From: a virus
Strand: one strand, 5' to 3'
DNA length: 29,735 nucleotides
Virus record (IMG/VR): IMGVR_UViG_3300022752_000282
Coordinates: 1-29,735 of that record
Each line of letters starts with the position of its first letter. Within the stretch, counting starts at the first letter, position 1. Below, one piece after another: positions 7,005 through 26,674 of the stretch. Under the pieces are notes generated by a model. The model was not told the origin of the DNA and did no database searches. It saw only the letters and a program-made list of their open reading frames with translations. The position numbers and the translations under genes are program-made.

Positions 7005-10000
7005 TTAAACGATACAAAGTGTTCCTGAACTGTTCCAAACATCACCTGCTGTTAGTCCTACAGAACTTGTTGGTATATCACGAATGTTCAATCGGTTGAC
7101 AAATGTAGTACAAGCAGCGTGTGCTGTTAATCCCATACCTACAATCATTGCACCAACAAATCCGCAAGAATCATTACAAGATCCACCAAGAATTGCAGAA
7201 TGATTTCCACTTGCTATATTACTAACTCCACCAACTATAACTGCACAACCACCACTTGCAGTATTTCCAATACCATTAACTATTAATGCGTATTGACCAC
7301 TTGCTGTGTTACAAGAACCTCCTACTACAACTGCGCCCTTTGCTGATGCAGTATTTCCAAACCCTCCACCAACAAATGATAAAGTACATACTGCATTATT
7401 TCCTGAACCGCCGACGGCAACTGAAAGTATTCCACTTGCTGTGTTGTTTGTTCCACCTCCAATGAATGCGCCTGTTCCTGAAGTAGTATTTGAGAAACCA
7501 CCTGCCACTGTTGAACACTGCATTGACGCAGTATTCGACCTACCTCCGCCTACTGTTGCATATGAACCACTTGCAGTATTACTAAATCCACCACCAACAA
7601 AAGAAAAATTATTTGATGCTGCATTACTACGTCCGCCTGCAACTGTAGTGCAATTACAATTTGCTATGTTTGATAATCCTCCGCCAATAAATGCGTTGTT
7701 TCCTGATGCGGTATTCGAATTTCCTCCAACAACTGCTGAACAAACCCCACTTGATGTATTCGATAATCCTCCACCGACAAATGTTCCAGTTGCTGACGCA
7801 GTATTCCCATACCCGCCAACGACTGATGAAAAAACATTTGTTACTGTATTGAAACAACCACCTGCGACTGATGAGAAATTTCCTATTGCAGTATTACCAT
7901 ATCCTCCCCCGATTGCTGCGTTACTACCTAATGCTGTGTTATATCTACCGCCTCCTACCACTGCATATTTTCCAGCCGCAATGTTTGCTTCACCTCCACC
8001 TATGAATGTATTTGAATTCGATACTGTATTATTACAGCCACCCCCAATTACAGAAAAAGTATTACTTGCAGTGTTTCCTTCTCCGCCACCGATGAATGAA
8101 CTACATCCAGCAGAAGTTATTGTATTTCCATAACCACCAACAATAGTGGATCTTCTTGACTCTGCTGAGTTATTAGAACCACCTCCGATAAAGCTATTGT
8201 TTCCTGATATATTATTATTAACCCCAGCTCCGATAAATGAACCAATTCCTGAGCCTGTGTTTCCACTTCCACCGACTACTGTTGAAAAATTACTTGATGT
8301 GTAATTAAATTTACCACCACCAATAAATGAACAGTCACCGCTTGCAACATTTAAACACCCACCTACTACAATAGAACTATCACCGGAAGAAGTATTAATT
8401 GAACCTCCGCCAATAAATGTATAATAACAACTAGCTGTATTACAATAGCCACCTGAAACAGTAGAAGCTGTTTTGTTAGAAATATTTTGTTTTCCACCGC
8501 CAACCGATGCAAAATCTGCGTTTGCAGTATTTCCACAACCTCCCGCTACTGTTGCATAATTACTACTTGATGTGTTAAATTTTCCACCACCGATTGTGGC
8601 ATGATACGCACTTACTGTGTTATTAGATCCTCCACCTATATTTGCGTAATTTCCACTTACTGTATTGCTACAACCACTTGCTACTGTTGAATAATAACCG
8701 CTTGCTGTATTATTACATCCACCGCCGATGTTTGAATATAAACCAGAAGCAGTATTTGTTCCTAATACAGGTTCAATCGCCGACGGCGTTGTTCCATTAT
8801 ATTGATAAGGACTTCCTATTCCAGTAGGTCCAGTAGGTCCAGCAACGCCTGCAATTCCAATCAGCGTCAACATATCACCGTTACTTAACGAAGTTGCCAG
8901 ATCTGAACTGTAATGATTTCTAATAACCTGATACCATAAATGGCTTTGTTCGTCAATCACCATTTGACCGCTAATATAAGAAGTATCAGTTGTGTATTTT
9001 GTAACTTGATTTCGATAATCTTGTAACAAATTTTTAGGTGTATGGTTTGGCATATCGTAAGTTTGCCAAATTTGACTCCAAGACCAAGGTCGTAATATAT
9101 TTGCAGGTGAACCTGCAGTATAATTTGATGGAACAAAAACAAGTCCTAAAAATAAATGTTCATCATCTAAAATTGGCCAAAGACTTGTTGTGTCATATAT
9201 CAAATGGTCTGCAACATCACCGATTTGATAAATTGTTCCTGTAGTAGTTAGTGTTGCTGAATTACTAAGTGTCACTTGACCTGCCGTTGCCACATTTGTT
9301 GTCAATGTGCCTGGCGGTATTCCAGGCGCAAATACTAATTCATTCAATGCCGGTTGAGGATATACATTTGTTAACACATTACTTCCACTGGTTGAATCTG
9401 CCTGAAAGGCATAATTAACTCCTCCTGAAGTACTGACGGCATACGTAACATTTGAAAATGCCGAAGATGGCGGAACTGTCAAATCGATTGCTGTAATAAT
9501 ACTTCCTGCCAGTGTTATTGCTGTAACACCCGAAGCAACTCCAATTCCAGGTCCAACAATTGCATCGCCAATAACAATCGCACCTGAACCAATTCCTTGT
9601 TGTGGGTCAATTGTTATAGTTGTGCCGGTGCCTGGGTATGTTCCTAAAAAAGTAATTGCTTTTCCCGCATTGTACGTTGGCCCGGTGATTGCAGTTAATC
9701 CTGCTGCGTATTCTGTACTATCAACACCAAAAGTTCCAACGATACTTGTTGGTGCTGGATTTGGATAATCACTTTTCAACGCAATAATATCAATTCTTGC
9801 TTTTGGTGGAGGAGATGGATTTGGTGAAATTTGAATATCCCCATTTGCTAAACCACTTGCTGGTTCGTGATAATAATTTTTTCCAAGTATTCTTCCTGCG
9901 CCTGACTCGACACTCACCCATAATGTTCCTCCGCCGGCAGCACCAACAACAGATGGTGCTACAACTCGTAATCCTTCTACAATACTTGGTTGTGTATTTG

Positions 10001-10223
10001 GTTGAATGATTTCACCGCCATCTTGAGTATACAATGCACCTGCATCAAAGTCAACAATTGTTTCTCCTCGATATATTGTTCTGCTATCAAAGTCAGCGGG
10101 ATTGTCAATATGATTGGTGCCGGGTATGGCTCGTTTTGGACGTGGCCATACAGATGTTGCAGAATTAAAATATTTTGAAATCCTTCGAACAAATGATGTG
10201 ATTAAATTTGTCTGTCCTGCCAT
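7005..10223 (-). CDS. Large tail fibre / adhesin with YadA-like head repeats
   Basis: 1072 aa. The N-terminal part (about 1-130) includes TIYRGETIVDFDAGALYTQD, a type of sequence seen in phage fibre and baseplate-attached proteins. Residues 130-450 are Thr/Gly/Ser/Val-rich beta structure. A short collagen-like stretch (GVAGPTGPTGIG, about 458-469) leads into about 35 tandem 15-residue units (about 489-1032) of the form 'S-x-I/V-G-G-G-x-x-N-T-A-S-G-x-x'. This is the left-handed beta-roll of trimeric YadA/Hep_Hag adhesins. The C-terminus has IPTSSVGLTAGDVW, often found at fibre tips. The repeats carry about twenty cysteines. It should be trimeric and receptor-binding. The start overlaps the preceding gene by 22 bases. 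Confidence 0.88.
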   Translation of the reverse strand: MAGQTNLITSFVRRISKYFNSATSVWPRPKRAIPGTNHIDNPADFDSRTIYRGETIVDFDAGALYTQDGGEIIQPNTQPSIVEGLRVVAPSVVGAAGGGTLWVSVESGAGRILGKNYYHEPASGLANGDIQISPNPSPPPKARIDIIALKSDYPNPAPTSIVGTFGVDSTEYAAGLTAITGPTYNAGKAITFLGTYPGTGTTITIDPQQGIGSGAIVIGDAIVGPGIGVASGVTAITLAGSIITAIDLTVPPSSAFSNVTYAVSTSGGVNYAFQADSTSGSNVLTNVYPQPALNELVFAPGIPPGTLTTNVATAGQVTLSNSATLTTTGTIYQIGDVADHLIYDTTSLWPILDDEHLFLGLVFVPSNYTAGSPANILRPWSWSQIWQTYDMPNHTPKNLLQDYRNQVTKYTTDTSYISGQMVIDEQSHLWYQVIRNHYSSDLATSLSNGDMLTLIGIAGVAGPTGPTGIGSPYQYNGTTPSAIEPVLGTNTASGLYSNIGGGCNNTASGYYSTVASGCSNTVSGNYANIGGGSNNTVSAYHATIGGGKFNTSSSNYATVAGGCGNTANADFASVGGGKQNISNKTASTVSGGYCNTASCYYTFIGGGSINTSSGDSSIVVGGCLNVASGDCSFIGGGKFNYTSSNFSTVVGGSGNTGSGIGSFIGAGVNNNISGNNSFIGGGSNNSAESRRSTIVGGYGNTITSAGCSSFIGGGEGNTASNTFSVIGGGCNNTVSNSNTFIGGGEANIAAGKYAVVGGGRYNTALGSNAAIGGGYGNTAIGNFSSVAGGCFNTVTNVFSSVVGGYGNTASATGTFVGGGLSNTSSGVCSAVVGGNSNTASGNNAFIGGGLSNIANCNCTTVAGGRSNAASNNFSFVGGGFSNTASGSYATVGGGRSNTASMQCSTVAGGFSNTTSGTGAFIGGGTNNTASGILSVAVGGSGNNAVCTLSFVGGGFGNTASAKGAVVVGGSCNTASGQYALIVNGIGNTASGGCAVIVGGVSNIASGNHSAILGGSCNDSCGFVGAMIVGMGLTAHAACTTFVNRLNIRDIPTSSVGLTAGDVWNSSGTLCIV
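7125..8757 (-). repeat. About 35 tandem 45-bp coding repeats (YadA-head type)
   Basis: The repeats encode 15-residue units whose third to sixth positions are mostly I/V-G-G-G followed by N-T-A-S. Units with FIGGG often alternate with units carrying VVGG or VAGG, giving a loose 30-residue period. Nucleotide identity between units is modest, so they are old copies held by protein constraint. One unit (near GNTITSAGC) has two extra residues. Confidence 0.9.
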
Positions 10224-18632: not shown

Positions 18633-20822
18633 TTAATTTATTGACAAATGTACTTGCATTTTCAAATCTTTGTCAACGAGCTTTCTTAATCCTGTTGGTA
18701 CAATTTTGCCATTAACAACAGCAAATTCAACAACATTTTGATTTGCCATTTCAGCAACCCCTCTCGCCAATTCCCCTAACACTGTTGACAATTTACCGAC
18801 AAAATACACACCTGCCATTAGACTAATATATGCACCGGAATCGAACTCTTTAAATGGTTCTTTGAATGCTTTAACCACTTTGTCAACGGCGTCAACAGCC
18901 AGATCTCCTAATTTTGTATCATAATTAATATCCTTGAGTAAGGCAAAAGCAAATGCAATTTGAAGTATAGAAGCACTCATTTTTTGTAACAATGAAACGC
19001 CTGGAGAGATAAGTAAATATTTAAGTCCAATTCCAGAAATAGCCCAACCAAGTTTACCAATAGTTCCAGACAATGAAGTTGCCATTTCTTCTTTCCAATC
19101 TATTTTTGCATACTCAGATAATCCTTGGGAAAATTTAATTAATGCTGATCCAACAAGCATCAATGCAATAGAACCTAACATAATTAATCCAGAAAATGCA
19201 CCAATTCCTGTTGCTATGACAGACATCGCAGCAATCGTAAGTCCTAATTGTACTAATTCTTCAGGCTTTAAATCTTTCGCTGCTGAATTTGCATAAAAAT
19301 TCAAACCGGCGACAAAAACTAATAATGATACTCCGATTATAGTTAATGCAACAGCACCTGTTGTTACCATTGGTCCATAAGAACCTAATATAGCAGCAGC
19401 AGTTCCCATAAAAGCAATTACAAGTCCAAGTTGAACTAGCTGCCATAATTCTAAATTAGCAGCACCTGAAACTTTATAAAATGCTAATGCAGCAACAAAA
19501 ACTAACAATGAAAAAGAAATCACCATCATATTTGCCGCGCCCTTTTTAATAATATCACCTGATACAAATCGCATACCTATTCCAATCCATATCAATGACC
19601 ACATTAAAGTAAATGCGCCGTTTCTAAATAATTCACCAACCATCGGTACGCCTAATGCTATAATAACCAATGAAAATATAGCGATTCCGATTGCTAATGA
19701 ATACATTGAATTAAGTGGGCTATCTTTACTTTTTCCTCCACCTGCTATAGTATAAGCGATAAGTACACCAACAGATATTACTGTCATTACCGTTAAGAAC
19801 GTTAAATATCCTTCTGCTAATTGACTTTTGATTAGTGGCAATGCAATAATTACTAATGTAAAAATAGCAATGCCTACAGCCATTTGCATTAACGAACCGA
19901 GAGGACTATTATCTTTGCCATCTGCCGACATATCGGATTTAACAATTTTTTGTACTAAAAATAATGTCCCTGCTAATACTAATAAAGTTGTACTAAAAAT
20001 TGCAACTCCAGTAAGTACTTGTGGAATCAAATAAGAAACACCAACCATTACAAGTGTAAATATAGCAATTTGTGTACCCATCCTGAGTAATACACCAAGA
20101 GGCCCTTTTTCAAATCCTTCCTTTGTTGAACTATCGCCCAACAACATAAATACCAAACTCAACGAGCCTCCCAATACTACTAACATTGCACTAAATGCCA
20201 ATGTTCCCATTGCGGCCATTGGTGCCACTAATGATGTCAACGACATTACAAGCATAAATCGTCCGATGCTTTTGCTCATTCCAAAGAGTAACGTTAAACC
20301 TTCGAGCGTTTCCTTTTTCATATCAGGAAGCTCAGTTATCTTTTCAACTATTTTTTCAACCACCATTGAAAACATAACTGCACCCATAATAGAAAATGGA
20401 CCGATGAATGCTGACTTTGCTAAGTCTTTCATCAGTTTACCCGTTGACTTACCAATAACATCAATAAAATTGGTAAACGTAGCTATTTTTTTCTCATCGT
20501 ATTGTTGAATAGGTTCAATAACGTCTTCTATGATACTTTCGTAAAATGAAACCAATTTATCTGCAGCATCGGGTTTTATTTCATTTGCCATTACAGCTGC
20601 TTCAACAAACGATTTCATTGCAGTTGATAGTCCCATCAAATTTGACGCCGTGGTTTCATTTCCAATTCCGCCAATGGCACCAACTTGTCCGCCGGTTGCA
20701 GGCGCGCCATTTTGTCCTTGTTGATTTTGTTTTCCTTGTTTTTCAAGAACAGTTAACATCCTTTTGTTAACATCAATCAACTCGCCAAGTTTTGATACTA
20801 TTCTACCGCCGTCCTGAGACAT
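18633..20822 (-). CDS. Tape measure protein, N-terminal part (frameshifted)
   Basis: 729 aa. A soluble start (MSQDGGRIVSKLGELIDVNK, then a Gly/Gln-rich linker) leads to a helical region and then many hydrophobic segments (about 150-560; for example MLVMSLTSLVAPMAAMG and IAIFTLVIIALPLI repeats). These are the membrane-prone helices typical of tail tape measure proteins. It follows the tail assembly chaperone, the usual place for a tape measure gene. The last true residues are IVPTGLRKLVDKD. The frame then ends in an unrelated KMQVHLSIN and stop, while the expected repeat continues in the -1 frame. Terminator and promoter-like elements lie just upstream (20841-20879). Confidence 0.82.
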   Translation of the reverse strand: MSQDGGRIVSKLGELIDVNKRMLTVLEKQGKQNQQGQNGAPATGGQVGAIGGIGNETTASNLMGLSTAMKSFVEAAVMANEIKPDAADKLVSFYESIIEDVIEPIQQYDEKKIATFTNFIDVIGKSTGKLMKDLAKSAFIGPFSIMGAVMFSMVVEKIVEKITELPDMKKETLEGLTLLFGMSKSIGRFMLVMSLTSLVAPMAAMGTLAFSAMLVVLGGSLSLVFMLLGDSSTKEGFEKGPLGVLLRMGTQIAIFTLVMVGVSYLIPQVLTGVAIFSTTLLVLAGTLFLVQKIVKSDMSADGKDNSPLGSLMQMAVGIAIFTLVIIALPLIKSQLAEGYLTFLTVMTVISVGVLIAYTIAGGGKSKDSPLNSMYSLAIGIAIFSLVIIALGVPMVGELFRNGAFTLMWSLIWIGIGMRFVSGDIIKKGAANMMVISFSLLVFVAALAFYKVSGAANLELWQLVQLGLVIAFMGTAAAILGSYGPMVTTGAVALTIIGVSLLVFVAGLNFYANSAAKDLKPEELVQLGLTIAAMSVIATGIGAFSGLIMLGSIALMLVGSALIKFSQGLSEYAKIDWKEEMATSLSGTIGKLGWAISGIGLKYLLISPGVSLLQKMSASILQIAFAFALLKDINYDTKLGDLAVDAVDKVVKAFKEPFKEFDSGAYISLMAGVYFVGKLSTVLGELARGVAEMANQNVVEFAVVNGKIVPTGLRKLVDKDLKMQVHLSIN

Positions 20823-20840: not shown

Positions 20841-20850
20841 TTATATATCA
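20841..20850 (-). promoter_or_regulatory. Promoter-like motif TGATATATAA before the tape measure gene
   Basis: TGATATATAA lies immediately after the T-run of the terminator at 20852-20879 and 18 bases before the tape measure ATG. The same ten bases occur before the tube and chaperone genes. A terminator followed directly by this motif is a good sign of a new transcript. Confidence 0.45.
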
Positions 20851-20851
20851 A

Positions 20852-20879
20852 AAAACCCCAGCGAAGACACTGGGGTTTT
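20852..20879 (-). terminator. Intrinsic terminator between chaperone and tape measure genes
   Basis: A 10-bp perfect stem (AAAACCCCAG / CTGGGGTTTT) with an 8-base loop has a T-run on either strand, so it could work in both directions. It begins four bases beyond the stop of the chaperone extension frame. Confidence 0.93.
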
Positions 20880-20883
20880 ATTA

Positions 20884-21177
20884 TTAAAACTTCGGCATTG
20901 TTGGCATTTTGAAATTTCCTAAATTACCCATGCCTTGTAGCGATTGTCCTTTCATCATATCGGATGCCGTTTTTGATAATGTAGAAGTATCGAATTTTGG
21001 CATACTGTCCCGTTGGCGATTTTCTTCTTCTTCGTTGTGTTTCTTTTCCTTCTCGTTCCATTCTTTCAAATTTTCCATTAAATACTCCGCACGATAAAAT
21101 TCCATTCGGTCTAATACGTCCGGTTGTAAACGCAAAATTTTAAGAAGCAAGAATTCAACATTAAACCAATTCTCCAA
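20884..21177 (-). CDS. Tail assembly chaperone extension frame (C-terminal part of frameshift product)
   Basis: This frame is open from 21255 but its plausible coding part starts near 21180-21210. The residues NWFNVEFLLLKILRLQPDVL followed by DRMEFYRAEYLMENLKEW and a charged Glu/Lys stretch look like the distal domain of tail assembly chaperones (the 'T' part of G-GT). The overlapping beginning (MLTVPRSLRRLTFKEE) is an out-of-frame reading of the chaperone and unlikely to be used. No good start with a suitable leader exists, so I infer it is made by ribosomal frameshifting from the 324-aa frame (+1, equivalent to -2). A TTG at 21177 is the only alternative start. The C-terminus is GMGNLGNFKMPTMPKF. 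Confidence 0.65.
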   Translation of the reverse strand: MENWFNVEFLLLKILRLQPDVLDRMEFYRAEYLMENLKEWNEKEKKHNEEEENRQRDSMPKFDTSTLSKTASDMMKGQSLQGMGNLGNFKMPTMPKF

Positions 21178-22135
21178 AGATATCTGAAATAAGGAAAATA
21201 GATTTGACTCCTCCTTGAAAGTTAAGCGGCGCAGTGACCTCGGCACCGTTAGCATTTACATAACGAATTTGTGGATTGATTGAAGTTGATAACAATTCAA
21301 CCAACTTGTCTAATACTGAAATTTTCTGCACAGTCCAACTGTATGAATCCTGTACTGCTTTATCGTATGCTGCTTGTGTTAATGTTCTCCAATCATTAAA
21401 CAAAAAGGGCGCATATTTAATAAAAGCTTTATCGAAATTTTGTTTTTGCTGTTGTTTGGTTTTAATATAATTTTTAATAAAACCCATAACGCCTAAAGAT
21501 GGAAAATAAATTTTAAATGATTCTCCACTTTTCATTTGCATAGCAAAACATCTCTCTTCAGCTGAGAAATACTTCATCATTCTTTCATCAGGATTGAAAT
21601 AGTCAATTACATCTTTAATCAATTCAACCTTTTCCTCAGCACCGTCTTCATTAGTTGCTGTGACATACATTTTATTTTCTCCATTTTTAAATGTGTAGTC
21701 ACGAATTGCAAAAATGAGATAAAAACGGTCAATCTCTTTCAAGTCTTTGAAAGTTCCCGGTCTTCCCGGCACTTTAATTCTGCAACATTTTTCAATGATA
21801 AAATTCAACATATCATCAACACCCAATAAGTCGTTTTCATCAATTGTTGACCAATGGCGAATTTCAGCTACCGTTGCTGCACGAATTGCTATTTGTGTTC
21901 CGGATTCGTAAAACATTCCTTGTGACGGAATTTGTTCGAGCGGAACTGTTTTCCAACCAATTTCAGCTGCTAACGGATCATCATGGTCATACATTTTTTG
22001 TGGTTGGACCTTTCCGATAGATGCAGCAACAATAGTACTTTTTGTTTCATTGCCTTCTTCCCGTTCAGCAAACAACATTGCCTCACGTTCAATTTGTTCT
22101 TTAATTTTGTCTGGGTCTAAATTTTCGTTCTGCAT
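21161..22135 (-). CDS. Tail assembly chaperone, T4 gp26/gp51-like family
   Basis: 324 aa. After a polar start, residues about 80-125 (IRAATVAEIRHWSTIDENDL then DDMLNFIIEKCCRIK) and the following FKDLKEIDRFYLIFAIRDYT resemble the T4_baseplate (gp26-like) proteins of T4-type phages. Its position between tube and tape measure is that of the tail assembly chaperone, which binds the tape measure protein while the tube polymerises. The frame ends ISDIFGELV, while a second frame continues the likely protein. An unusually strong AAGGAGGAG lies inside the 3' end (21208-21216). It has its own promoter-like motif and follows the terminator of the tube gene. Confidence 0.72.
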   Translation of the reverse strand: MQNENLDPDKIKEQIEREAMLFAEREEGNETKSTIVAASIGKVQPQKMYDHDDPLAAEIGWKTVPLEQIPSQGMFYESGTQIAIRAATVAEIRHWSTIDENDLLGVDDMLNFIIEKCCRIKVPGRPGTFKDLKEIDRFYLIFAIRDYTFKNGENKMYVTATNEDGAEEKVELIKDVIDYFNPDERMMKYFSAEERCFAMQMKSGESFKIYFPSLGVMGFIKNYIKTKQQQKQNFDKAFIKYAPFLFNDWRTLTQAAYDKAVQDSYSWTVQKISVLDKLVELLSTSINPQIRYVNANGAEVTAPLNFQGGVKSIFLISDIFGELV

Positions 22136-22260: not shown

Positions 22261-22818
22261 TTAAAGAATGGTTTCTTCCCAGTAGTCACAACGGAATGTA
22301 AATCCAGCAACTTTGTAAATTTCATTACTGCTGAAATCAGATTCAATAACAGGCAGTGGAGTTGTTGGGAAACAAACAGGAAATTTAACCTGACGGAAAA
22401 TATCACCATTTTTGTTAAAATAGTTAATAATCATTGGACCTCCAGTGTAATCCTTTTTCAATCCCATGCGACCTGTTAACGGGTCGTAAATCAAATCAGT
22501 CCATTGACGAAGTGCTTTATAAACATACATTGAATTAGCATCGTCCAAGTTAACTTCAAATTCAAGTTGAACATCAGCCACTGTTGCATCATTCATACCA
22601 CCAGCAAAAGTACGCTTTGCTGATTTGTATTTTTGTTCAACAACAGCAGGTAGTTTATTAATATCAACACCGCTAACTTTTAGTACGTTTTCCATAACAA
22701 GTGTCCAAGAAGCAACAGCAGGTGGAGGTGTTAATTGGATTTCAAATTGCGACAAATAAACAGGTTCAAACTTGTTCATCGCCGCTCTTGAATTTCTATA
22801 GTGTGGTAATCCAGCCAT
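22261..22818 (-). CDS. Tail tube protein, T4 gp19-like
   Basis: 185 aa, close to T4 gp19 (163 aa). It begins MAGLPHYRNSRAAMNKFEPV followed by YLSQFEIQLTPP. A beta-rich core includes KRTFAGGMNDATVADVQLEF and the end reads FTFRCDYWEETIL. This pattern is typical of the contractile-tail inner tube, which polymerises as hexamer rings inside the sheath. It is encoded right after the sheath gene, as in T4, and is closed by a strong terminator, so it can be made in high amounts from its own promoter-like motif at 22836-22845. Confidence 0.87.
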   Translation of the reverse strand: MAGLPHYRNSRAAMNKFEPVYLSQFEIQLTPPPAVASWTLVMENVLKVSGVDINKLPAVVEQKYKSAKRTFAGGMNDATVADVQLEFEVNLDDANSMYVYKALRQWTDLIYDPLTGRMGLKKDYTGGPMIINYFNKNGDIFRQVKFPVCFPTTPLPVIESDFSSNEIYKVAGFTFRCDYWEETIL

Positions 22819-22849: not shown

Positions 22850-25800
22850 TTAAACAGCAGCAAATCCGCCTGAAGAAATTGCACCTGTTTTCAATACAGT
22901 AATACGATTGATGAATTTTTGTAATCCACGAGCAGGTTCAACACCAATATCAATAATTCCAAAGTTTTGGTCAATTATTTCAGGTGTGTTGTTTGATTCG
23001 TCCATAATTACAGCATAGTTATAAATACCTGAACCATTACGAACAACATCAAGATATGTTTCAACCAATGTTCTGATTTGTAGACGGTTGGCGGCATCAT
23101 TGAATTCAAACAAATAGTTTTGTAGGATTTCAATTACTGCTTCTTCAATTGTTATCAACAAATCACGAACGTGTAAGTTATTGAACGCAGATAAGGTTCT
23201 TTGATATGCAGTTTGATTAGCAAAAATCATCGGACCTACATTACGTACAACTGTGATTGGATTCAAACCGATTGGTTCAAGGAATTCACGATCTTTCAAT
23301 AAAAAGTCGTATTCCATTCCAACAAATTTTGGATTCGAAATTACACCACGGCGAGGACCGGCAACAATTGCATACGGTTCGCCATTGATAAATTTACGAA
23401 CAAAATTATTTGAAACATCAGCAGCAGGTGGAACACTCTTGTTTTTGCCATCTTCACGAATAATGATATTTGGCGTAAATACACCAATAAATTTAGCACC
23501 ATTTTCTTCATCAGGCAAACTCCAAGTATAACTTGGTCCGAGTGAAAGATTACCTCCTGTTGAGATATATTCAGTATTCAATACAGGTTTTGGATTTCCA
23601 GTTTGTGGGTCAGGCAATTCAGTAAACCTTGGATCAGTACTTGCTTGAAATTCAGCCATTGACGGTGCATTCAATATTGCCATACATTGTTGGCGATTTT
23701 TTGCCAAACGGCTCAAGTATTGTTTTGGTCCCATACCCGGTTCCAAGCCACCAATAAATGTATCAATAATGTAACGATACTGAATAACATCTTTTGATGT
23801 CAAAGTTTCACCAACATTTGTTGTTTCAAGAACACTCAATATTTTTTCCAATTGTGCCGGAGTACCAGGTAAATGGTATTCAGTCATTTTGAATCCTGAC
23901 ATTGCAGTGAATTGGTATCTGTCAACGAATTTTTGTATCGGTGTGAATTTAGTAATATAATCAATTCCACTCAACGAAGTAATACCTGGTATTTGAATAG
24001 CAGTGTATTCAAAAAATGGTGTTCCAGTTGCAGGATCGAATTTTTTCACCTTTGCTGTGATTCTGGTTAATTGTGGATTTTGAGTATTGTTATTAACAAC
24101 AAAATCACCAATTTCAAGATTTGCAGCATTGGTTGAATTTAATTTGAATTTCTTTCCACCCGCATACAATCCTGGACTTTCAAGTGAAATATTTGCACTG
24201 ATATTTTTTGCAGTAGCAGAATAAACAGCAACAATATTTTCAGTTAATCCACCGATTTGTTGGGTTGTATCAATATAAGTATTATCAACTGAAGCAAAGG
24301 TTGAATTTGCACGAGTTAATAATTGAGTATCAGTATATTCACGTAAACGAACGCCATTGAGACCGTATGCAACTTTTGAATATTCATCGCCTGCCTTACC
24401 CCAAGAAACATCAACATTTACATAATTAAATTGTGAGCCACCAGTTCCATATTTAACACGGTCGCCGTCAACAACAAGACTTCCTTTAATGTCCTTGCTT
24501 AATTTTGAGCCAGGATATGCTTCAATATATGCAAGTGTTGTAATATCAGAAGTTCCGAGATTGTATGCAGGTAATAAACCAGCAGCGTTATTTGAAACTA
24601 ATCCACGGAAGATTGTACCACCCGGTAATTCAACACGAACAGTATCACCAATACCAAGACCGTTGAGTGCATTGTTTCCAGCAGCATCAGTAATACGAAC
24701 ATTTCTGAAATTTGGATCAGAAGAGTCAACTACATATGCAGGATTTGATGGGTCAAATATGAAATATGGACCACCAAGGATTTGCACAGCAGGAACAACT
24801 GATTCATTGAACAACAATACAGTGTTTTCAGCAGCAGCAACGGTTGTTTGTCCTAAGCCTTCAACACTATTTAATTGTGCAGAAGGATTCAAAATATATC
24901 CAAAAGCATTACCAAACAAACCTAATTGAGTATCAGGAACAAGAAATTCAGCAGCAGCAGTTGGTTGATACAATGTTACAGTAAGTACGCCTGGTTGAAC
25001 GAATGCTGAAAATTCATCTGCAGGGAATCCAGAGACACACCATTTGTTGAAATGAAAAATTGGGTCAGCAAGAGGTGCACCTACAGTAATAGTTGTTGTC
25101 GCTCCAATTACTACACCGGTAACGAAAAAGTATTTGCTATATCCTGCAGATTCAATTAAAATAACATCGTTAGCACTTGGTGTTAAATTTGAAAAATTAA
25201 CAACCTCGATAGTATTAGCAAGTGTTGGAACTGTTGCTGCAACTGTTTCTTCAATATAGTTTGACTCCGGTGCTGTGGTGAAACCATTTTGATAATCAGC
25301 ATCAGTGTGATTAGGAGTAGACAATTGAACGAGAATTTCAGTTCCAGTATCAATGATGTTTGCTACTTTAACATAGTCATTAGGAAGAGCACTATTAGTA
25401 ATTGTGCTATTACCAATTGTGCGGAATAATGAATTTGTATTCAAATTTCCTAAAAGTGCTTCCCATTGTGACGGTGTGAATGTTACATCATTTGGAATTG
25501 GTTTTGGAATTGCTAATACATTACAAAATTTTCCACTAACATCGCCGTATGCAACAGACTTAACGTATGGCGCAACTGATCCGCTTAATGGATTATATGA
25601 TTGTGAAACTAATTCATTATTTGTTAAGTCAGCATCTTTTCCAGCGAATGACAATACATTTTTAATTGGCGTATTGTATGACAAAAAGTCAATAGTGTCA
25701 TCAGTTGTGTTGATTAAACTATTACCAACCATGTCAACACGATACGGACTATTTGCATAGTCAGAAAGTGCATTTTCGTTAATATTCAAAAATAATCCAG

Positions 25801-26674
25801 TGATACTTACATTAGCATTAACGATTGTATCAATTGATTGATTTGAACCATTGTTATCAAGAAAGTTTGGTATAATACATCCAGTGAATGAGCCAAGCAA
25901 TGTGATTCCATCTAATGATACGAATTGGTCTAAACGACTTGCGATGATACCACGTAGATCAAAATATTTACTATAAGTAGGATCCTGTGATAACAATGGA
26001 AGATTTGTCCAATCTCCTTTTACAATATAGACATCAACAAAATAGTCAGACAAGTAGTCTTGTGGATTTACATAAGCTGGAATTTCGTCAGCGCCGTAAT
26101 ACTCTTCCGCAGTAATGTTGTACTGTGAAGCATTAACTGATTTTTTAATAATGATACTATTAACTTGCTGTCCTAAATTTACAACATTGAAAAGACGACC
26201 TGCATCAAGAGGTTTACTGTCAACAGTTGCCTGTAAATATTCAGTATCAGGAAACCAAAATCTTTCTTTGTTGTAAAAAGAAGAGTAAAGTGCTCTCATT
26301 ACATTTCCATTTTGTTCATTAGCTGCTAATGCAAATGAACGATAGTCAACGGCGTCTCCGCCTTCATTAACAGGAACATTGTTGAGAGGTAACAAGTTGA
26401 GCGCAAATATAGGTCCAGTTGCAAGACAAGTTTCTATTGCTCGATGGAAAAAAGATCCACGAGATTCTAAAACTGAGTCAATATTCCCAAATATTCTACG
26501 AGCATTACGAATGTCACGTAAAAATACCGGCGCATTGAAAGGTCCGATGCGAGAAAATCCAACAACTAAACGAATTGTTTGTGTTGAAACTATGATTCTC
26601 TCCGAAGCGTCAAATTCAATGGTATAGACACCTGAGGCTTTGAACCTATTAAGATCCAATGTAATTTTTGCCAT
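22850..26674 (-). CDS. Tail sheath protein, T4 gp18-like, extra long
   Basis: 1274 aa, nearly twice T4 gp18 (659 aa). The N-terminus has the sheath pattern: YTIEFDASERIIVSTQTIRL, LVVGFSRIGPFNAPVFLRDI, then a GSFFHRAIETCLATGPIFAL segment. The C-terminal 300 residues contain the conserved sheath fold (KFINGEPYAIVAGPRRGVIS, FVGMEYDFLLKDREFLEPIG, then NNLHVRDLLITIEEAVIEIL). It ends VGVEP-like in IIDIGVEPARGLQKFINRIT. The middle (about 250-950) is beta-rich Gly/Thr/Asn sequence that probably forms surface domains inserted in the sheath. It polymerises around the tube and contracts on infection. The leader contains a hairpin and an ATATATAA element. Confidence 0.92.
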   Translation of the reverse strand: MAKITLDLNRFKASGVYTIEFDASERIIVSTQTIRLVVGFSRIGPFNAPVFLRDIRNARRIFGNIDSVLESRGSFFHRAIETCLATGPIFALNLLPLNNVPVNEGGDAVDYRSFALAANEQNGNVMRALYSSFYNKERFWFPDTEYLQATVDSKPLDAGRLFNVVNLGQQVNSIIIKKSVNASQYNITAEEYYGADEIPAYVNPQDYLSDYFVDVYIVKGDWTNLPLLSQDPTYSKYFDLRGIIASRLDQFVSLDGITLLGSFTGCIIPNFLDNNGSNQSIDTIVNANVSITGLFLNINENALSDYANSPYRVDMVGNSLINTTDDTIDFLSYNTPIKNVLSFAGKDADLTNNELVSQSYNPLSGSVAPYVKSVAYGDVSGKFCNVLAIPKPIPNDVTFTPSQWEALLGNLNTNSLFRTIGNSTITNSALPNDYVKVANIIDTGTEILVQLSTPNHTDADYQNGFTTAPESNYIEETVAATVPTLANTIEVVNFSNLTPSANDVILIESAGYSKYFFVTGVVIGATTTITVGAPLADPIFHFNKWCVSGFPADEFSAFVQPGVLTVTLYQPTAAAEFLVPDTQLGLFGNAFGYILNPSAQLNSVEGLGQTTVAAAENTVLLFNESVVPAVQILGGPYFIFDPSNPAYVVDSSDPNFRNVRITDAAGNNALNGLGIGDTVRVELPGGTIFRGLVSNNAAGLLPAYNLGTSDITTLAYIEAYPGSKLSKDIKGSLVVDGDRVKYGTGGSQFNYVNVDVSWGKAGDEYSKVAYGLNGVRLREYTDTQLLTRANSTFASVDNTYIDTTQQIGGLTENIVAVYSATAKNISANISLESPGLYAGGKKFKLNSTNAANLEIGDFVVNNNTQNPQLTRITAKVKKFDPATGTPFFEYTAIQIPGITSLSGIDYITKFTPIQKFVDRYQFTAMSGFKMTEYHLPGTPAQLEKILSVLETTNVGETLTSKDVIQYRYIIDTFIGGLEPGMGPKQYLSRLAKNRQQCMAILNAPSMAEFQASTDPRFTELPDPQTGNPKPVLNTEYISTGGNLSLGPSYTWSLPDEENGAKFIGVFTPNIIIREDGKNKSVPPAADVSNNFVRKFINGEPYAIVAGPRRGVISNPKFVGMEYDFLLKDREFLEPIGLNPITVVRNVGPMIFANQTAYQRTLSAFNNLHVRDLLITIEEAVIEILQNYLFEFNDAANRLQIRTLVETYLDVVRNGSGIYNYAVIMDESNNTPEIIDQNFGIIDIGVEPARGLQKFINRITVLKTGAISSGGFAAV

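Follow-up and report, generated by a model that had tools for sequence, protein, structure and literature searches.

The tail-assembly region of this virus raises the question of how an overlapping reading frame with no usable start of its own might be translated. The window analyzed here, a virus record, spans 29,735 bases with 34% G+C, and its minus strand holds almost all of the genes, in the order terminase, sheath, tube, a 324-aa protein (A), an overlapping frame (B) and a hydrophobic 729-aa protein. As reported in the initial annotation, B lies in the +1 register of A, which equals −2. It is open from 21255 to its stop at 20884–20886. The locus is composed of the following elements.

22850–26674, minus strand: tail sheath protein (phrog_34521, phrog_23).
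22261–22818, minus strand: tail tube protein (phrog_45 / phrog_3629).
21161–22135, minus strand: putative zero-frame chaperone A (gpG-like or T4 gp26-like), 324 aa, whose model is closest to the HK97 tail chaperone and to T4 gp26/gp51-like proteins.
21256–21258, minus strand: last B-frame stop (TAA) before the overlap; a shift must fall downstream of it.
21208–21216, minus strand: AAGGAGGAG, Shine-Dalgarno (SD)-like probable stimulator, with 11 nt from the end of GGAGG to TTTTC.
21194–21199, minus strand: slip core ATTTTC (ATT TTC in the zero frame), N-TTT-T(C/T) in 109 of 113 distinct relatives; the predicted re-pairing goes from TTC (21196–21194) onto TTT (21198–21196).
21161–21163, minus strand: zero-frame stop (TAA) closing A.
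20884–21198, minus strand: putative post-shift B extension (T-like), FSLFQISLENWF...MPTMPKF, with the conserved B alignment running from the slip codon.
20850–20879, past the B stop and ahead of the following gene: inverted repeat, rich in GC and with a run of T on either side, resembling a terminator by eye.
18633–20822, minus strand: hydrophobic 729-aa protein, probable tape measure.

The zero frame reads CAA GGA GGA GTC AAA TCT ATT TTC CTT ATT TCA ... GTT TAA, and frame B reads TTT TCC TTA TTT CAG and continues to FKMPTMPKF. Upstream, A and B are flanked by an identified tube gene; downstream lies the 729-aa gene, which is a tape measure by position only and for which the family search gave no match. 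The inverted repeat, absent from the pattern-scan output, is possibly a two-way terminator separating the chaperone frames from the gene that follows. The two motifs singled out by the initial annotation lie on the minus strand, AAGGAGGAG at 21216–21208 and ATTTTCC at 21199–21193, and its view that an SD-like site is unusual in this genome was borne out: AAGGAGG occurs once on the coding strand of the window, at the overlap, and none of the 32 gene starts is preceded by GGAGG or AGGAG within 20 nt. Many GGAGG motifs, with spacings near multiples of 45 nt, are also seen on the minus strand at 7322–8633, within a 1072-aa gene (7005–10223); their spacing suggests diverged glycine-containing protein repeats, and the tandem repeat finder reported no repeats there.

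The AlphaFold model of A (mean pLDDT of 80) matches T4 gp26/gp51-like proteins in BFVD. A Foldseek search of the model against the PDB gave no significant match; with a second-look aligner, the best solved match was the HK97 tail chaperone (2ob9; Z of 5.5, r.m.s. deviation of 3.5 on 79 residues), a modest score below 8 that could be a coincidence, followed by YqbN (3klu, Z of 4.6). Against PF12322, the T4 gp26 family, the window protein scored 19.5 bits, below the cut-off of 24.5, and 2 of 24 members matched at an E value of 0.01.

Relatives were collected by a scan of IMG/VR, which returned 67 loci with A as query and 18 with B, by tblastn against phage records, which added the Lak megaphages, PAU, pT24, PTm1, MaF61, MA9V and several uncultured huge phages, and by a further scan seeded with LR745206, in which 264 relatives were found and 80 kept. 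A scan of IMG/VR with the MA9V-2 protein found no relatives. Removal of duplicates left 113 distinct sequences, including MA9V-2, which are related to one another, so that counts made on them are not independent. In every lineage the offset is the same and the stop of A precedes that of B; where records are annotated, the B frame is represented by a small, truncated ORF. The core N-TTT-T(C/T) is present in 109 of the 113, as ATTTTC, CTTTTC or GTTTTC, and as ATTTTT in MA9V-2. Its exceptions, the Lak phages (ATATTC, TTATTC) and pT24 (ATTGTC), keep both frames. An equal offset in 113 distinct relatives, with the core in 109, is beyond chance and is not a sequencing error. Relatives thus hold two frames at exactly the site proposed in the initial annotation, and neither outcome that it had set against a shift, one-frame coding in relatives or an indel error, was encountered. 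Of the two elements whose conservation it had proposed to check, the slip core is widely kept; the SD-like site is clade-specific.

The pattern of substitutions shows where the constraint passes from one frame to the other. Among the close relatives of the window (the window clade), half carry B-frame stops, which in most of those leave a shift only the last 59 nt of A. The third codon positions of A vary (GGA/GGG, AAA/AAG, TCT/TCC) up to codon −42/−39, then freeze at NTT TTC CTT ATT, and beyond the stop of A it is the third positions of B that vary. Upstream of the core in this clade, the share of changes silent in A is 0.45 and that silent in B 0.05; after the core, the shares are 0.26 and 0.32, respectively. 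In the sister clade D, none of the changes after the core is silent in A and 9 of 11 are silent in B (a share of 0.82). Changes silent in A and not in B therefore dominate upstream of the core, and the reverse appears after it, most clearly in clade D. The conserved B sequence opens with FSLF(Q/M) at the slip codon in most lineages, with F1 and S2 at least 90% conserved; in the alignment of B, Lak (L101) has an inserted segment and in LR756501 the matching segment lies further downstream. Selection switches from A to B at the slip core.

These observations indicate that a ribosomal frameshift of some kind almost certainly operates here, and very probably a −2 shift at TTTTC, programmed in a tail-assembly chaperone gene so as to give a G/GT-type pair of 324 and about 417 aa. 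As in such pairs, the second of the two overlapping frames has no start of its own and extends the C-terminus of the chaperone. Most ribosomes would complete A. At ATT TTC, a minority, the P site being occupied by Phe-tRNA paired with TTC, would slip two bases back onto TTT and read TCC TTA TTT CAG in frame B. The resulting A-B fusion, about 417 aa when built in silico, would end in a predicted helical domain with an MPxF-like tail. A and A-B would be the counterparts of lambda gpG and gpGT, holding the tape measure and bringing it to the tube protein. The TTC-to-TTT re-pairing proposed in the initial annotation proved to be cognate in every lineage that keeps the core, and nowhere else in the mapped interval. 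In 109 of the 113 sequences the P-site tRNA can form cognate pairs two bases further upstream, as a Mu-type shift requires; Lak and pT24 are the exceptions.

A +1 shift in the same interval would yield an identical B frame with one residue fewer, and we regard it as improbable. The net frame is the same, and in 9 of the 29 window-clade sequences and some others CTT precedes TTC, so that Leu-tRNA could slip forward from CTT onto TTT in the manner of prfB. In most lineages, however, TTC is preceded by ATT or GTT, neither of which re-pairs on TTT, a move from TTC to TCN gives a middle-base mispair, and no +1 re-pairing works throughout. The 11-nt SD spacing fits backward shifts, whereas the SD of prfB is close to the P codon (PMC8710568, and as is generally known). 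The two readings predict different junction peptides in the window, SIFSLFQISLENWFNVEFLLLK for −2 and SIFLFQ... for +1. The Lak phages (L087, L088 and L101) are without the TTTTC core, and their A ends in TTT TAA or CTT TAA, a prfB-like +1 site that suggests a possible +1 shift into the B frame in these phages and counts in favor of +1. In pT24 (L096), the ATTGTC core does not allow the −2 re-pairing.

That B is a separate gene with its own start, TTG at −14 or an ATG, and with the SD-like sequence as its ribosome-binding site, is highly improbable. Candidate codons do occur: TTG at −14 in 27 of 28 window-clade sequences, ATG at −29/−26 in clade J, TTG or ATG at −14/−11 in clade D and, in some clades (J, D), a B-frame ATG or TTG just past the core; public annotations also call small ORFs here. 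Yet the candidate differs from clade to clade, past the core the overlap is free of such codons in LR756500, LR756501 and MA9V-2, the TTG is absent from L033-type sequences, and the comparison across lineages found no B start codon common to all. Selection on frame B sets in at the slip core, ahead of the candidate codons; none of the starts in the window relies on an SD, and here frame B has no start codon at SD spacing. The initial annotation was right that B has no usable start: the frame-B ATG at 21255, directly after the TAA, is not conserved as a start, and in 15 of the 29 window-clade relatives a B-frame stop lies between that position and the slip core. An own B start was rejected as not conserved. 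An indel error or decay that split a single gene would account for the broken frame itself and for nothing else, and has next to no probability: 113 distinct sequences, drawn from many assemblies and among them isolate genomes, agree in offset and stop and rule out a sequencing indel, and purifying selection acts in both frames. Transcriptional slippage was set aside, the T run being merely four or five.

Given a −2 shift at the core, we asked what may stimulate it. In the window clade the internal SD, located some 11 nt ahead of the slip site, probably makes the shift more frequent by pairing with 16S rRNA; the balance of evidence leans toward a functional stimulator in this clade, and a clade-specific one at most. 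GGAGG upstream of the core is found in 24 of 29 window-clade sequences against 8 expected (maximum of 16 in 2000 codon-usage simulations), an excess whose statistic is weakened by the kinship of the sequences. The SD lies within the 10–14 nt upstream range of the dnaX type, is in excess over coding need, and is specific to the clade. The stimulation claimed in the initial annotation is consistent with this excess over codon usage; it does not extend to the sister clade, from which the SD is absent, and the SD is weak in several other phages. That the frameshift is real and GGAGG merely two glycine codons is a sub-question compatible with the −2 shift, and a less likely answer, if one to be taken seriously. 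The Gly-Gly is conserved in A here, GGAGG is missing from clade D and others, and the anti-SD is sequestered in Bacteroidota ribosomes (PMC8710568, PMC9976891); the named relatives point to Bacteroidota as hosts. Against it, these genes encode Gly most often by GGT, yet in 29 of 29 sequences GGA or GGG is used for the second Gly, and GGAGG stands at three times expectation. Bacteroidia prfB retains a perfect SD at its frameshift site (PMC8710568), a precedent for an SD at a recoding site.

RNA structure gave different results in the two clades. In the window clade, a stem-loop in the region after the core had no support (z of 0.38), nor had a downstream pseudoknot or stem in this clade or clade J; pairing of GGAGG with TTTTCC was weak (z of −2.7) and not convincing, and Rfam gave no match. 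Clade D (L036–L066, e.g. L044:3748–3858), without the SD, has a 15-bp helix in which the sequence just upstream of the core pairs with that about 50 nt downstream (consensus z of −11.8). Of its cells, 96.7% are paired, two pairs are changed on both sides, and slid versions reach at most 44%. Genes for bS21 were found on 6 of 14 clade D contigs (L037, L039, L040, L041, L061, L066) versus 0 of 19 window-clade contigs, a contrast that is a lead only, the contigs being fragments. bS21 also occurs in LR756501, LR756504 and one J contig. It is tentatively possible that the stimulator is matched to anti-SD availability, and that across the T4 superfamily one chaperone pair arises through a −2 shift, a −1 shift or, in T4, from two genes. 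The window clade, in which no bS21 was found, would use an internal SD, host ribosomes exposing their hidden anti-SD during elongation, and clade D, which often encodes bS21, would use an RNA stem bracketing the slip site in place of the SD.

In T4, genes 26 and 51 (L183, 3803–5229) are separate and divergent; an alignment of gp51 with gp26 has an E value of 6e-16. In cyanophages, the 3' end of gp26 reads T_TTT_TTC, which leaves a single codon before the stop; the −1 frame continues for about 60 codons (L194–L273, L184, L192, L193); some records annotate it as a very short or truncated gp51. The run is kept, and the −1 frame is the longer open one, in 70 of 70 distinct IMG/VR tails, one contig having 13 open codons. 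Cyanophage S-SCSM1 has the −2 frame, not the −1, at the same run. A −1 frameshift giving a gp26-gp51 fusion is thus probable in cyanophages. In profile-profile comparison, this fusion, built in silico, matches T4 gp51 almost end to end (E value of 2e-15) and A-B with an E value of 2.8e-15; A-B against T4 gp26 or gp51 directly was not significant, so that the similarity to the T4 gp26/gp51 superfamily, including the B extension, runs via the cyanophage fusions only. T4 gp51 resembles a gp26-type domain joined to the B extension and so may be T4's counterpart of the long (GT) chaperone. On a simple reading, gp26 and gp51 would be the short and long chaperone forms, which many lineages produce by frameshifting and T4 from two genes. 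Our literature search found no report of a gp26/gp51 frameshift, which is weak evidence given its partial coverage.

In E. coli dnaX, a −1 frameshift has an internal SD 10–14 nt before the backward slip. The window site likewise has an upstream SD at this distance ahead of a backward slip; it differs in the predicted single-tRNA −2 slip on TTTTC, and no conserved downstream stem was found in the window clade. Bacteroidia prfB also has a strong SD where recoding occurs, in organisms with SD-free starts; its shift differs in being +1, at a stop codon and closely spaced from the SD, and in serving RF2 autoregulation (PMC8710568). The tail-chaperone frameshift is conserved in tailed phages, as in lambda gpG/gpGT (Xu, Hendrix and Duda 2004, reviewed in PMC5009743). 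Like lambda, the window pairs a short chaperone with a longer, predicted frameshifted form beside tube and probable tape-measure genes; unlike lambda, the shift would be −2 instead of −1, the core is TTTTC, and no family-level gpG sequence match was found. The predicted net −2 shift in a myophage tail chaperone is as in phage Mu (PMC5009743), from which the window system differs in protein family, slip sequence, probable Bacteroidota hosts and the likely stimulator, an SD or, in relatives, a flanking stem. A resembles gp26/gp51, the T4 baseplate hub assembly chaperones, which come from two genes and need no frameshift.

The kind of system is thus known, while the slip site, the stimulators and the gp26/gp51 link appear new. 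Tail-chaperone frameshifts are known, −2 ones are rare, and we found no report of one in a T4-like phage. The proposed shift supplies the second product that the annotations of the PAU, pT24, PTm1, MaF61 and MA9V phages truncate. It also offers a possible explanation of the short cyanophage gp51, which lacks about the first 200 residues (Sullivan et al., PMC3037559), and would make T4 gp51 the long form of the chaperone. The locus provides a natural test of SD action in bacteria whose ribosomes hide the anti-SD, and the comparison suggests that T4-like phages in general follow this scheme.
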